This document shows, piece after piece, positions 55,296-58,928 of a stretch of 64,000 nucleotides of DNA (positions are counted from its first letter, which is position 1; every line of letters begins with the position of its first letter). Origin of the DNA: Herbaspirillum sp. LeCh32-8 (GTDB lineage: Bacteria > Pseudomonadota > Gammaproteobacteria > Burkholderiales > Burkholderiaceae_D); assembly GCF_017814915.1 (NCBI RefSeq), contig NZ_JAGIPZ010000006.1:1-64000 (forward strand). The letters run 5' to 3'. The notes under the pieces are model-generated. The model was not told the DNA's origin, made no database searches, and saw only the letters and a list, made by a program, of their open reading frames with translations. A program made the translations under genes and the position numbers.

Positions 55296-55309
55296 TGAGA
55301 TTTATCTCA
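55296..55309. promoter_or_regulatory. TGAGA-N4-TCTCA operator upstream of DUF1120 gene 1
   Basis: Perfect five-base inverted repeat TGAGA-TTTA-TCTCA preceded by ATTATTTT-like sequence; a further TGAGA half-site lies at 55322. The same arrangement occurs at 57331 before DUF1120 gene 2. Confidence 0.6.
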
Positions 55310-55341
55310 TATGAACTTCAGTGAGAAATAGACAAACTGAC

Positions 55342-55392
55342 GTCACTGCATCAAGCAAACCAGGCAAGCACACGGCGCGATGCACATGAATC
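55342..55392 (+). repeat. Leader repeat, copy 1
   Basis: A 51-base segment (GTCACTGCATCAAGCAAACC to CATGAATC) identical to 57377-57427 except for two bases. It lies in the untranslated leader of DUF1120 gene 1. Confidence 0.9.
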
Positions 55393-55417
55393 ATTCAACA
55401 CTCTGGGAGAGAACATC

Positions 55418-56074
55418 ATGAAAAACGTCATCGCCTTCACCGCTCTGGCTGCAAGCCTGATCTCCGGCGCCGCTGTCGCCGCCAGCACCACCGAACTGAA
55501 AGTCACCGGCGTCATCAAGCCGCCCGCCTGCGCCGCGACCATTGCCGGCGGCGGGACTGTGGATTACGGCACTATCGCGGTCGCTTCCCTGAACAAGACC
55601 TCGGTGACCAAGCTTGATACCAAGGAAGTGCCGTTTTCGGTCTCTTGCGACGCATCGGCCAAGGTTGCACTGAAGTTCACTGACAACCGTGCCTCCTCCA
55701 AGGTGACCGGCCTTAGCCCTTCTCTGGGCTTCACCGACGAAACCGCCATGATGGGATTGGGCGCAGCCAGCGGCAAGAAGATCGGCGCCTATTCGGTAGC
55801 CTTGAAGCAAGGCTCATTCACTGCTGATGGCGCCTCTGTCGACACGCTCTTTACATTGAATCAAGGTGCGACATGGAGCAAAGGCACCCGCAGCGTTTTT
55901 GCTTCAAGCGCTTGGCTGAGCTGGGGCACCACCGGCACCACCACTCCTGTGGCCGCGAAAACCGTCAGCGGCACCCTGGCGGTGACCGCGATCATCGACA
56001 AACCCAACAACCTGGTTCTGACCTCGGACGTGCCGCTGGACGGCAGCGGCACGATCGAAGTGGTCTATCTGTAA
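55418..56074 (+). CDS. DUF1120 secreted fimbria-like protein 1
   Basis: A 218-residue protein with signal peptide MKNVIAFTALAASLISGAAVAA and mature start STTELKVTGVIKPPAC. A beta-rich single domain follows with one Cys pair (PPACAATIAGG and VSCDAS), YGTIAV, FTDNRASSKVTGL, GKKIGAYSVALKQGSFTADG and a C-terminal KTVSGTLAVTAIIDKPNNLVLTSDVPLDGSGTIEVVYL. This is the DUF1120 family, found near beta-fimbrial genes in enterobacteria. No chaperone or usher is near. It is 70-80 percent alike to gene 2 at the protein level by eye, with an almost identical leader. GGGAGAG precedes the ATG and a terminator follows. It is likely an adhesin or surface subunit. Confidence 0.85.
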   Translation: MKNVIAFTALAASLISGAAVAASTTELKVTGVIKPPACAATIAGGGTVDYGTIAVASLNKTSVTKLDTKEVPFSVSCDASAKVALKFTDNRASSKVTGLSPSLGFTDETAMMGLGAASGKKIGAYSVALKQGSFTADGASVDTLFTLNQGATWSKGTRSVFASSAWLSWGTTGTTTPVAAKTVSGTLAVTAIIDKPNNLVLTSDVPLDGSGTIEVVYL

Positions 56075-56096
56075 TCACCCCGTCGCCTCATGCAGA

Positions 56097-56122
56097 GCCC
56101 GGTTTATCGCCGGGCTTTTTCT
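56097..56122 (+). terminator. Terminator after DUF1120 gene 1
   Basis: GCCCGG-N7-CCGGGC followed by a T-run (TTTTTCT), 22 bases past the stop. Confidence 0.8.
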
Positions 56123-56254
56123 TGCCTGCGTGGACAGATCAAAGTGCAGGCCTGCCCGGACAGGCCGCAATCGGCATGAAGGTTTCCGGCAGAGCCGGTG
56201 CGACGGGCCATGGCCCGGCAACGATGTCTCCACCAGACACATCAGCGAAACAAG

Positions 56255-56267
56255 TTGCGCATCGCAA
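56255..56267. promoter_or_regulatory. Possible MarR-type autoregulatory palindrome
   Basis: TTGCG-CAT-CGCAA is a perfect five-base inverted repeat 48 bases before the MarR-GNAT gene, with a further TTGC half-site at 56287. MarR proteins often bind such sites at their own promoters; binding here is inferred. Confidence 0.35.
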
Positions 56268-56315
56268 TCATATCAAGGTAGATTAGTTGCACTCCACAAC
56301 CAACCAGGAACCCTG

Positions 56316-57302
56316 ATGGACTACGCCGACCTCACCTCCCCTCCGCGCGAGCAAACCATCCGCCAGCTGCGCGAACTCTCTCGCAAGCTGGTGCGTGAAC
56401 TGGGTTTCATGCGCAGCACCCTGGCCGGCAGCGAGCTGGCGCCGTCGGCGGTGCACGCCATCATCGAGATCGGCCAGGCGCCGGGCATCCAGGCGCGCGA
56501 CCTGGGCGAGATCCTGTGCCTGGACAAGTCCAACACCAGCCGACAGGCGGCCAAGCTGGAGGCGCTGGGCCTGTTGCGGCGCGCCGCGGTGGAGGGCGAC
56601 GCGCGCGGCTGGGGTCTGCACCTGACCGACGCCGGCCAGGCGCTGCGCAAGAAGATCGACAAGTTCGCCAGCGACCAGGTCTCGGCCGCGCTGACGCGCA
56701 TCGTTCCGGAAGACCAGCAAGGCCTGGTGCGCTCGCTGGCGCTGTACGCGGATGCCTTGTCGCGCGACAACCCCAATATGACGCCCCGCCCCGCCGTGGC
56801 CGCCGGCGGCGCCGATGCCTTCGTCCAGGGCTACCGGCCCGGCTGCATCGGTGACATCGCCGGGCTGCACGCACGCTACTACGCGGCAACGGCGGGCTTC
56901 GGCGCGTATTTCGAGGACAAGGTGGCCGGCGGCCTGGGGGCGTTTGTCCAGACCCTGCCGGCGCCGGGCAAGGAAATCTGGCTCTGCATGGAGCAGGATC
57001 GCGCGCTGGCGTCCATTGCCATCGATGGCGACGTTGCCGCCGGCGTGGCCCACCTGCGCTGGTTCATCGTCGACGACAGCCTGCGCGGCACGGGCGTGGG
57101 GCGCGTGTTGCTGCAAAAGGCCATGGATTTCGTCGATGCGCACGGCTTTGAAACCTACCTGTGGACCTTCCAGGGCCTGCATGCGGCGCGTCACCTGTAT
57201 GAGTCAGCCGGCTTCGCACTGGCCGAGGAAGCCCCCGGCGAACAATGGGGCAGCCGGGTGGTGGAGCAACGCTTCGTGCGGGCGGCGCGCCGGCCCGGGT
57301 AA
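56316..57302 (+). CDS. MarR-GNAT bifunctional regulator
   Basis: A 328-residue fusion. Residues 1-150 are a MarR winged helix (REQTIRQLRELSRKLVRELGFMRSTLAGSELAPSAVHAIIEIGQAPGIQARDLGEILCLDKSNTSRQAAKLEALGLLRRAAVEGDARGWGLHLTDAGQAL). Residues 165-320 are a GNAT acetyltransferase: GYRPGCIGDIAGLHARYYAATAGFGAYFE, the acceptor strand GVAHLRWFIVDDSLRGTGVGRVLLQKAMDF with the RGxGxG CoA loop, and YESAGFALAEEAPGEQWG. MarR-GNAT proteins are widespread with mostly unknown targets. It sits between two DUF1120 genes with matching operators, so it may control them. AGGA precedes the ATG. Confidence 0.85.
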   Translation: MDYADLTSPPREQTIRQLRELSRKLVRELGFMRSTLAGSELAPSAVHAIIEIGQAPGIQARDLGEILCLDKSNTSRQAAKLEALGLLRRAAVEGDARGWGLHLTDAGQALRKKIDKFASDQVSAALTRIVPEDQQGLVRSLALYADALSRDNPNMTPRPAVAAGGADAFVQGYRPGCIGDIAGLHARYYAATAGFGAYFEDKVAGGLGAFVQTLPAPGKEIWLCMEQDRALASIAIDGDVAAGVAHLRWFIVDDSLRGTGVGRVLLQKAMDFVDAHGFETYLWTFQGLHAARHLYESAGFALAEEAPGEQWGSRVVEQRFVRAARRPG

Positions 57303-57330
57303 GGGCCTCGACCGAATGACGGAATTATTT

Positions 57331-57344
57331 TGAGACTTTTCTCA
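57331..57344. promoter_or_regulatory. TGAGA-N4-TCTCA operator upstream of DUF1120 gene 2
   Basis: TGAGA-CTTT-TCTCA, a perfect five-base inverted repeat preceded by ATTATTT and followed at 57351 by another TGAGA. Same layout as at 55296. Confidence 0.6.
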
Positions 57345-57376
57345 TTTAATTGAGATGCGCGGAACGACATACTGAG

Positions 57377-57427
57377 GTCACTGCATCAAGCAAACCAGGC
57401 AAGCAAACAGCGCGATGCACATGAATC
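57377..57427 (+). repeat. Leader repeat, copy 2
   Basis: 49 of 51 bases match 55342-55392. It lies in the leader of DUF1120 gene 2. Confidence 0.9.
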
Positions 57428-57454
57428 CAGTTCAACATTTTGGGAGGAAATATC

Positions 57455-58111
57455 ATGAAAAACGTCATCGCCTTTACCGCACTTGCTGCAAGCCTGATCT
57501 CCGGCGCTGCTATCGCCGCCAGCACCACCGAACTGAAGGTCACCGGTGTGATCAAGCCGCCTGCGTGCGCGGCGACGATTGCCGGCGGCGGCACCGTGGA
57601 CTACGGCACCATCCCGGTGACCTCGCTGAACAAGACTAGTCCGACCAAGCTCGCTACCAAGGAAGTGCCGTTTTCGTTTTCCTGCGACGCATCCACCAAA
57701 ATCGCGCTGAAGTTCACCGACAACAAGGCCTCGACCAAGGTGACCGGTCTTGGCGGCCCGGTTGGCGCTATCTTCGAAACCACCATGATGGGATTGGGCG
57801 CCGCCAGCGGCAAGAATATCGGCGCATATCAGGTTACCCTGAAGCAAGGTTCCTTTACTGCTGATGGTGCCGTTGTTGACACGCTCAATAGCCCGGATCA
57901 AGGCGCTTCTTGGTACAAGGGCGACCTCGGCACCTTTTACACGGATCGCTGGCTGAGTTGGGGTAAAACTGGCACCACGACTCCCGTCTCAGTGAAAACC
58001 GTCAGCGGTACCTTGTCCGTGACTGCCGTGATCGACAAGACCGATAACCTGGTTCTGATCTCGGACGTGCCGCTCGACGGCAGCGGCACGATCGAGGTGG
58101 TGTACCTGTAA
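57455..58111 (+). CDS. DUF1120 secreted fimbria-like protein 2
   Basis: A 218-residue paralogue of gene 1. The signal peptide MKNVIAFTALAASLISGAAIAA and the first 25 mature residues are almost identical; differences concentrate in the middle (TGLGGPVGAIFETTMMGLG, YQVTLKQGSFTADGAVVDTLNSPDQGASWYKGDLGTFYTDRWLSWGK), while the C-terminal strand DGSGTIEVVYL is kept. This pattern, conserved ends with a variable centre, suggests diversification of a surface protein. I start at 57455, after GGGAGG, rather than at the in-frame ATG five codons upstream, to keep the signal peptide intact. It is followed by DUF1120 gene 3. Confidence 0.85.
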   Translation: MKNVIAFTALAASLISGAAIAASTTELKVTGVIKPPACAATIAGGGTVDYGTIPVTSLNKTSPTKLATKEVPFSFSCDASTKIALKFTDNKASTKVTGLGGPVGAIFETTMMGLGAASGKNIGAYQVTLKQGSFTADGAVVDTLNSPDQGASWYKGDLGTFYTDRWLSWGKTGTTTPVSVKTVSGTLSVTAVIDKTDNLVLISDVPLDGSGTIEVVYL

Positions 58112-58220
58112 TCCGGCTCAAGCGGAAGTATAAAAAGTCCGGCAGCGCACCGGACCATCAAGCCAAGCCGGGCCACCGAACGGCGATGTCTATCCCGTCA
58201 ATCTCAGATAGAGGAAATTC

Positions 58221-58880
58221 GTGAAACAAGTCATCACCCTGGGTACGCTTGCCACGGCGCTGGTTACCGGCACTTCGTTCGCCGCCGCCACCACCGAATT
58301 GAAAGTCAGCGGCGTCATCAAGCCGGCTGCCTGTGCGCCAACCATTGCCGGCGGCGGCACGCTGGACTACGGCAACATCCCGACCGCCTTGCTGAAAAAG
58401 AAAGAGCCGACCCAGCTTGCGCCCAAGGAAGTGCCGTTTTCGTTCTCCTGCGAGGCGGCGGTCAAGGTCGCGCTGCGGTTCACCGACAATCGCGCCGCCA
58501 CCAAGGTGAGCGGCCTGGCCAGCGTCCTCGACGCCAACACGTCCGAGAGCACGATGATGGGATCGGGCAACGTCGACGGCAAGAACATCGGCGCCTATGC
58601 GGTGGCGCTGAAGCAAGGCTCGTTCACCGCCGACGGCGTCGCCGTCGACACGCTCAATTCGCCCGACCAGGGCAAGACGTGGAAGAAGGGCGTCAAGGGT
58701 CACTTCCACACGGACGCCTGGCTGACCTGGGGCGCGACCGGGACAAAAATCCCCGTCGCGGTGAAAACCGTCAGCGGCGTGCTGTCGCTGACGCCGGTGA
58801 TCGACAAGTCGGACAACCTGCCGCTGTCGTCGGATGTGAAGATCGACGGCAGCGGCACGATCGAGGTGATGTACCTGTAA
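58221..58880 (+). CDS. DUF1120 secreted fimbria-like protein 3
   Basis: A 219-residue, more diverged paralogue. The signal peptide MKQVITLGTLATALVTGTSFAA uses a GTG start preceded by GAGGAA. Mature TTELKVSGVIKPAACAPTIAGGGTLDYGNIPTALLKKKEPTQLAPKEVPFSFSCEAAVKVALRFTDNRAATKVSGL and C-terminal KIDGSGTIEVMYL keep the DUF1120 layout with one Cys pair. The leader repeat and TGAGA operator seen before genes 1 and 2 are absent, and the 109-base gap after gene 2 has only a weak hairpin, so it may be read through from gene 2. A strong terminator follows. Confidence 0.84.
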   Translation: MKQVITLGTLATALVTGTSFAAATTELKVSGVIKPAACAPTIAGGGTLDYGNIPTALLKKKEPTQLAPKEVPFSFSCEAAVKVALRFTDNRAATKVSGLASVLDANTSESTMMGSGNVDGKNIGAYAVALKQGSFTADGVAVDTLNSPDQGKTWKKGVKGHFHTDAWLTWGATGTKIPVAVKTVSGVLSLTPVIDKSDNLPLSSDVKIDGSGTIEVMYL

Positions 58881-58898
58881 TCACCATGCGGCGACATG

Positions 58899-58928
58899 AA
58901 AAAGCCCGGCATCGCGCCGGGCTTTTTT
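58899..58928. terminator. Bidirectional terminator after DUF1120 gene 3
   Basis: AAAAAGCCCGGC-ATCGC-GCCGGGCTTTTTT, between the DUF1120 gene 3 and the convergent LtrA gene. Confidence 0.88.

Follow-up and report, generated by a model that had tools for sequence, protein, structure and literature searches.

Gene content of the locus

The window analysed here is the stretch of 64,000 nucleotides at the start of contig C40 (NZ_JAGIPZ010000006.1) of Herbaspirillum sp. LeCh32-8, whose genome of 5.03 Mb contains 10 matches to the DUF1120 protein family (PF06551). Three DUF1120 genes, named W1, W2 and W3, lie in this window with a gene for a MarR-GNAT regulator between W1 and W2; all four are on the + strand, and they are bounded by a gene for a FAD-dependent oxidoreductase and a – strand LtrA gene (Table 1). 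The original prediction, made from the letters of the window, was borne out in its inventory. W1, W2 and W3 score 69.8, 62.1 and 61.6 bits, respectively, against PF06551 (curated cut-off 21 bits), and the regulator, for which an acetyltransferase domain had been suggested, matches both the MarR and the GNAT domains. The TGAGA-N4-TCTCA palindrome described upstream of genes 1 and 2 is present before both, and the 51-base leader said to be common to them was recovered, the best 51-mer having 49 identities (starting at 55342 for W1 and 57377 for W2). Gene 3 indeed lacks the operator, the best palindrome upstream of W3 matching at only 7/10 positions. An extra TGAGA half-site does occur in both leaders, but its offsets from the palindrome differ (26 and 20) and it is out of register in other copies, so that it was rejected as a part of the operator.

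Table 1. Features of the DUF1120 locus, in coordinates of the window
Feature	Position	Strand	Remark
Palindrome TGAGATTTATCTCA, W1 operator	55296..55309	+	
CAAACT, –10-like hexamer of the W1 promoter	55333..55338	+	Fixed offset of +37..+42 from the palindrome start
W1 5′ leader	55345..55417	+	Putative start site A at 55345
W1 leader stem arms	TGCATC 55347-55352; GATGCA 55379-55384	+	
W1, DUF1120 chaperone-usher pilin-like subunit, 218 aa	55418..56074	+	Signal peptide judged by eye
Intrinsic-terminator hairpin after W1	56096..56116	+	AGCCCGG-TTTATCG-CCGGGCT, T-rich tail
TTGCGCATCGCAA, operator of the MarR-GNAT gene, outside the pilin regulon	56255..56267	.	
MarR-GNAT regulator, judged a bystander	56316..57302	+	MarR and GNAT domains
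Palindrome TGAGACTTTTCTCA, W2 operator	57331..57344	+	
CATACT, –10-like hexamer of the W2 promoter	57368..57373	+	Offset as in W1
W2 5′ leader, from a putative start site	57380..57454	+	Stem arms 57382-57387, 57414-57419
W2, DUF1120 pilin-like subunit, 218 aa	57455..58111	+	
W3, DUF1120 pilin-like subunit, 219 aa	58221..58880	+	GTG start, without operator
Terminator-like hairpin with T tract after W3	58899..58927	+	

DUF1120 proteins as probable chaperone-usher pilins

W1–W3 are very probably fimbria (pilus) subunits of the chaperone-usher type, judging from the gene neighbourhoods of their family and from a structure model. DUF1120 genes stand beside a chaperone and an usher gene in strain LeCh32-8 (contig C11) and on an Enterobacter plasmid, and a DUF1120 gene adjoins an usher gene in Pseudomonas mandelii; this linkage to PapD-type chaperones and ushers holds for the DUF1120 family, whereas W1–W3 themselves are orphans. 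Residues C38, C77 and Y217 are invariant across 9 DUF1120 sequences of the LeCh32-8 genome, and a Cys pair together with a penultimate Tyr of the C-terminal strand are what we take to be marks of chaperone-usher pilins. A sequence search of the PDB with W1 gave no match. A model of W1, built with AlphaFold2 from five sequences and of low confidence (mean pLDDT 57.5), gave FimA as the best match both in Foldseek (5nkt, E = 7.8e-6) and in VIA (6r74, Z = 8.4, 142 residues aligned), and the top rows of both searches are FimA/FimG and mostly other fimbrial subunits. Since a Z near 8 can reflect a common arrangement, genetic linkage is the stronger support for a pilin. Beyond the genus, a protein scan of a named-genome collection, from which near relatives may be missing, found Pseudomonas mandelii only, and a search of viral contigs found no relative.

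The original prediction stressed the absence of the usual chaperone and usher, which is true locally but not of the genome. At C11:122-131 kb, two DUF1120 genes, a PapD-type chaperone gene and an usher gene are lined up, and a weak DUF1120 match at C11:122735 (23.4 bits) comes next; divergent from this row are a REC-EAL gene, a gene for a LuxR-type response regulator (RR1, C11:129598-130290) and a REC-HPt gene. A second, classical chaperone-usher locus on contig C22 adjoins another LuxR-type regulator gene (RR2, C22:533691-534344). W1–W3 would be exported by the chaperone-usher pair of contig C11.

The expected pattern of conserved ends and a variable centre holds for W1 and W2, which are identical at 49/50 positions over residues 1–50, 36/45 over residues 51–95, 53/80 over residues 96–175 and 36/43 over residues 176–218; in W3 the contrast between ends and centre is slight. 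The dN values over the same four segments (0.009, 0.154, 0.266 and 0.085) are below dS in each, so the central region is relaxed and positive selection on it is unsupported. Recent gene conversion was likewise rejected, 14 synonymous changes against 1 non-synonymous change showing that the N-termini of W1 and W2 are similar through selection and not through recent copying. W3 is probably co-transcribed with W2 by read-through, which is the simplest account because W3 has no operator and the hairpin in the W2–W3 gap has no T tail. A general terminator scan gave no + strand entry, although hairpins after W1 and W3 exist.

Distribution of the palindrome

In the LeCh32-8 genome TGAGA-N4-TCTCA occurs in six places (reversed control, 0): before W1, W2 and a DUF1120 gene on contig C34, at the ends of contigs C7 and C18 with the same leader, and on C36 without a leader. 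A palindrome matching at 9/10 positions or better lies within 200 bp upstream of 6 of the 9 DUF1120 genes tested in this genome, compared with 0.04 expected from shuffles; the weakest of the ten, C11:122735, was left out of this test. For upstream regions of DUF1120 genes from loci across the genus, the same threshold was reached in 9/23 (0.12 expected). The extended form TTTGAGA-N4-TCTCA was found at 45 distinct sites in 14 of 34 genomes of the genus (50 rows, fully palindromic sites being listed twice), while the reversed control gave 4 matches. By inspection, 28 sites precede DUF1120 genes, 2 a leader at a contig end, 3 the chaperone gene of a DUF1120 operon (genomes G315, G287 and G152) and 1 a classical chaperone-usher operon (G315), the remaining 11 being elsewhere or unclear. 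Among 25 genomes, the extended form is present in 7/10 with DUF1120 and 2/15 without. Near-matches of 9/10 also lie upstream of a MrkD-like adhesin gene (G281) and of a gene for a 331-residue Fimbrial-domain protein (contig C42 of LeCh32-8).

Out of 294 genomes searched in the family, 6 have a longer module with an N24 spacer, and every one of them belongs to this genus (13 matches, one of which looks like chance). A pattern scan of the named-genome collection, with the same possible lack of near relatives, returned nothing, and palindromes in the DUF1120 stretches of Enterobacter, Serratia and P. mandelii reach 8/10 only, none of them convincing. The palindrome is a real and widely used regulatory site in the genus. 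The surface-antigen or adhesin system that had been proposed thus stands in so far as the proteins are very probably fimbrial subunits with a regulated promoter; it is not a small self-contained system, because the operator marks many loci, those in related species including the gene for a chaperone, a chaperone-usher operon of the classical type and the operon of a regulator.

Some individual sites deserve mention. An orphan DUF1120 gene with a 9/10 operator at C11:15905 directly adjoins a gene for a methyl-accepting chemotaxis protein. The protein encoded behind the palindrome on G295:C225 was considered as an adhesin, but it matches no Pfam family and was counted as unclear.

Promoter geometry and 5′ leader

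Aligned on their palindromes, 36 DUF1120 upstream regions need no gaps; one of the 36, L043, represents the divergent RR1 site viewed from its opposite side. Conserved in this alignment are TTT before the palindrome, TAT after it, and A38, A40, T42 and A49, counted from the first palindrome base. The hexamer at positions 37–42 (CAAACT, CAGAAT, CATAAT and related forms) agrees with TATAAT at 4/6 positions or more in 22/36 promoters; among non-redundant promoters the figure is 12/16, which 0 of 2000 shuffles reach. At the –35 place, none of the 36 promoters has 4/6 matches to TTGACA. Taking A49 as the start site would centre the palindrome at about –42.5, the position of a class II activator. 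LuxR-type activators bind there, as at the lux box at –42.5.

The geometry extends beyond the DUF1120 genes. The hexamer at +37 recurs at the REC-EAL/RR1 promoter in 6/6 genomes (G152, G315, G287, G295, G246 and G196) and at 2 of 3 chaperone sites, being absent at that of G287. It is also found at G287:C1:398771, G185:C67, G315:C1:2791991, G295:C225, G240:C3:187108, G281:C61:90108, the C42 site of LeCh32-8, the MrkD site of G281 and the chaperone-usher site of G295. A shift by one base is seen in G225 (+36) and at one G142 site (+38), and the hexamer is absent at the RR2 site of G142, G240:C1, C36 of LeCh32-8, G233 (where the site is inside a gene) and the second G196 site.

Among these sites, that of C36 (C36:304389-304404) lies near a gene for a GntR-like regulator and looks like chance. 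Two G142 sites (G142:C1:3377445 and G142:C1:1916432) are fully symmetric, TTTGAGA...TCTCAAA; one lies just upstream of RR2, and the other has TATAGT at +38. At G281:C61:90108 a perfect palindrome with TACGAT at +37 precedes genes that by eye resemble a peptide-export system, not fimbriae, and at G315:C1:2791991 the module, with TAAAAT at +37, precedes a gene for a single receiver-domain protein (PF00072), which may belong to the regulon as a regulator.

The leader reads as a 5′ stem-loop with covarying arms. In 11 of the 18 non-redundant leaders, the arm at +3..+7 from the putative start can pair with a segment further downstream, whereas permuting the partners gives 3.9 (p = 0.0002; in all, 36 combinations of arm, length and pairing were tested). 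A signal is also obtained with the arm placed at +4, and a weaker one at +5. The paired arms differ among leaders (TGCATC/GATGCA, CGCATCA/TGGTGCG, GCGCAA/TTGCGC and TGCTT/AAGCA). As 5′-terminal stem-loops in other transcripts stabilise mRNA, this one probably does so too. The search for known RNA families gave none above the gathering score, and its 13 weak matches include none on a leader. A leader open reading frame (ORF) was also considered: a 13-codon ORF at 55380-55421 ends on the W1 start codon (ATGA overlap), but it is not kept in W2, where the leader ORF runs on in another frame.

Candidate activator of the palindrome promoters

Among the LuxR-type candidates, RR1 is quite likely the activator that binds the palindrome, as far as can be judged by comparison of loci and protein sequences. 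Its PF00072 receiver and PF00196 LuxR-type (GerE) DNA-binding domains are both above the cut-off, and its best relative in the PDB is RcsB (E = 1.7e-25), followed by DevR (2e-18). We refer to it as RcsB/RocA1/CblR-type, a label that rests on sequence comparison for RcsB and on description for RocA1 and CblR. RcsB is reported to contact the half-sites TTAGGAA and TCTAAGA through Lys180 and Ser184 (PMC5829831); in RR1, Lys180 is kept and Ser184 is replaced by Gly. The recognition helix of RR1 is nearly invariant in 26 copies from the genus, including those of genomes without the palindrome. The palindrome promoter stands directly before REC-EAL/RR1 in the six genomes named above, two of which, G246 and G196, have no chaperone-usher genes at that place.

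RR1 relatives (44–53% identity) were found on plasmids of other genera, and six of these stretches were compared. On the plasmids of Pantoea SS70 and P. dispersa the relatives (46–47%) lie by fimbrial operons, and on a B. ambifaria plasmid the relative (46.6%) is ~7 kb from cable-pilus tip and usher genes. The motif TGAGAGTRCTCTYG occurs 3 times in each of the two Pantoea stretches (means in shuffled sequences 0.005 and 0), which are the same stretches from which it was drawn. The sites precede fimbrial-side and kinase genes, one of them a RocS1-like kinase gene, and 5 of the 6 have a hexamer of at least 4/6 at +37 (TATTAT, TATTAT, GATAAT, TCAAAT and CATATT; one site is without).

Several observations count against RR1. 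G163 has three perfect modules, a chaperone and an usher, but no close RR1, REC-EAL or REC-HPt gene. RR1 (at least 71% identity) is present in 13/14 genomes with the palindrome and in 14/20 others, a count that leaves out four further genomes with an RR1 homologue of 54–57%, so it does not track the palindrome. In LeCh32-8 itself, the stretches scanned at the RR1/REC-EAL promoter and the C11 DUF1120-chaperone-usher operon contain no palindrome of at least 8/10. A 9/10 site is missing from four of the six plasmid stretches compared, those of B. ambifaria, B. stagnalis, J. lividum and Pantoea SOD02; no chaperone-usher gene is annotated in the J. lividum and Pantoea SOD02 stretches, and that of B. 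stagnalis is unannotated. Finally, five RR2 loci also have a palindrome nearby.

Activation of the palindrome promoters by RR2, beside the classical chaperone-usher operon, or by another NarL-type regulator was also weighed and is considered unlikely. RR2 (at least 67% identity) is present in 14/14 palindrome genomes, including the RR1-less G163, but it is also present in 15/20 genomes without the palindrome; as neither regulator tracks the palindrome, the phylogenetic profile was discarded as a means of naming the regulator. In G315 (10/10), G152 and G295 (9/10), RR2 is separated from chaperone-usher genes by a palindrome with TATGAT at +37; in G225 a palindrome (9/10) is found downstream of RR2, and in G142 one is found upstream of RR2, with no –10-like box at +36 to +38. 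Against these, 24 of 29 RR2 loci are without a 9/10 palindrome. The recognition helix of RR2 has Ser where RcsB has the base-contacting Lys180, and the Pantoea palindromes accompany relatives of RR1.

Activation versus repression

A further alternative is that the palindrome is the operator of a repressor that blocks the promoter, with the TATAAA that immediately follows serving as the real –10 box. This TATAAA is –10-like as well, a TATAAT-like hexamer of at least 4/6 being present at offset 14 in 31/36 promoters. We nevertheless regard repression as distinctly improbable: no conserved –35 element lies upstream of the TTTT tract, and the covarying stem takes its position from the downstream start, its arm beginning at +3. 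The six REC-EAL/RR1 promoters keep the +37 hexamer yet have TATACG at +14, and the Pantoea sites keep it without TATAAA at +14.

The MarR-GNAT gene as a bystander

The original prediction had the MarR-GNAT protein binding the palindromes. It adjoins the pilin genes in LeCh32-8 and, for a W2-type gene, in G163, but adjacency can mislead. A close orthologue (at least 73% identity) is present in 15/34 genomes of the genus, and 9 of the 11 such genomes scored for PF06551 are without DUF1120. Conversely, of the 14 genomes with the palindrome, 5 have a close orthologue, 8 only a homologue of 44–49% and 1 none; the co-occurrence expected of a MarR-controlled operon was thus not found. The gene has a different operator of its own, TTGC-N5-GCAA, which is conserved before 14/15 close orthologues, the exception being truncated by its contig end (the count covers close orthologues, 12 more distant homologues lying outside it). 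Four genomes (G142, G252, G174 and G225) have oxidoreductase, MarR-GNAT and LtrA genes in this same order but no DUF1120 genes among them, and in G163 a W2-type cassette follows MarR-GNAT, the side before the gene being empty. Judging from these four empty sites and the one-sided cassette, the pilin genes have probably come or gone independently on either side of MarR-GNAT. Regulation of W1 and W2 by MarR-GNAT through the TGAGA-N4-TCTCA palindromes is accordingly rejected as extremely improbable, on its distribution, its own operator and the empty sites.

Comparison with known systems

The closest parallel is the Roc system of P. aeruginosa (RocS/RocA/RocR, cup fimbriae), in which LuxR-type and REC-EAL regulators are likewise tied to chaperone-usher fimbriae. 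The targets given for RocA in vitro include, besides the cupB and cupC operons, the roc1 locus itself (PMC12051241, PMC3083521), just as the palindromes here stand at the RR1 operon and at fimbrial genes. The Pantoea kinase by the RR1 relative has HisKA, HATPase, REC and Hpt domains, the order of RocS1, and a weak SBP_bac_3 match. No kinase gene adjoins RR1 among the ORFs read at the C11 locus, the genome as a whole not having been searched for a RocS homologue. The targets differ from those of Roc in including many scattered orphan DUF1120 pilins.

In P. aeruginosa PA14, an RcsB-type activator and an EAL-type antagonist (PvrR) similarly accompany the cupD chaperone-usher cluster (PMC2696094, PMC3842833), and the cupD1 promoter is described as having an RcsAB-box-like site whose GAA is essential for function (PMC3842833, PMC2696094). 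That system concerns one fimbrial cluster on a pathogenicity island, in contrast to the dispersed pilins here. CblRST controls cable-pilus genes in Burkholderia (PMC3842833), and the RR1 relative near the B. ambifaria cable-pilus genes may be CblR itself; the B. ambifaria stretch differs in having no 9/10 TGAGA-N4-TCTCA. The half-sites of E. coli RcsB, the closest solved structure to RR1, in the RcsAB box resemble TGAGA (PMC5829831), although the half-site differs, as does the residue at Ser184. The Enterobacter plasmid carries a member of the same Pfam family adjoining a chaperone and an usher; there the subunit is inside the operon, whereas here most are orphans with their own promoter.

No operator sequence of RocA1/CblR-kind regulators was found in the literature passages on them, and a literature search for orphan pilins with a response regulator gave none. 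Orphan DUF1120 cassettes, an operator with fixed promoter geometry and a covarying 5′ stem-loop seem to be new, no description of them having been found in literature that comprised mostly papers available without subscription.

Proposed mechanism and its weighing

With moderate confidence, we favour a reading in which W1–W3 are orphan pilins of a chaperone-usher fimbria that takes its chaperone and usher from another locus of the genome, with a shared class II switch, an RcsB/RocA1/CblR-type activator and a cassette origin. W1 would have arrived on one side of the unrelated MarR-GNAT gene and W2–W3 on the other, each as a cassette in which an operator, a promoter and a 5′ stem-loop accompany the coding part, W3 being read through from W2. 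The palindrome would act as a class II activator site near –42.5; the –10-like box keeps a constant distance from it, and a –35 consensus is lacking. RR1, a response regulator of the LuxR/NarL class, would most likely bind it and turn on the scattered subunits together and, in related species, also its own operon and the chaperone. The transcript would begin with the small stem-loop, which probably stabilises the mRNA.

Besides the points already raised for RR1 and the TATAAA box, some findings weigh against this reading. The palindrome at 9/10 is absent from 14/23 of the DUF1120 upstream regions from genus loci, and TTTGAGA-N4-TCTCA is missing from G216, G246 and G258, all of which carry DUF1120 genes. 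Folded one at a time, the leaders do only slightly better than shuffled sequences (mean z –0.68; 13/35 below –1), and the confidence of the W1 model is low.

A bolder proposal, which we hold tentatively and think rather doubtful, is a dispersed plug-in system in which many interchangeable, mobile DUF1120 cassettes, each with its operator, class II promoter and stabilising 5′ stem-loop and each landed next to unrelated genes, share one chaperone-usher machine and one RocA1/CblR-type activator. If so, the composition of the fibre would be set by the cassettes that a strain has collected. Chaperone-usher fimbriae are usually thought of as single operons. Here a family of 'unknown function' looks like a chaperone-usher pilin, with many copies outside any chaperone-usher operon, and a single promoter architecture connects these copies with loci of related species, namely the gene for a chaperone, fimbrial operons of the classical type and the operon of a regulator. 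The analysis provides a testable operator (TGAGA-N4-TCTCA, with the –10 box at +37) and a candidate regulator of the RocA1/CblR kind.

A separate observation concerns the assemblies. Contigs of three genomes end in or near DUF1120 genes or leaders (the end of C7 and the start of C18 in LeCh32-8; the ends of C24 and C25 in G163; the ends of C142, C165 and C110 in G225), which suggests near-identical repeated DUF1120 copies that could recombine.

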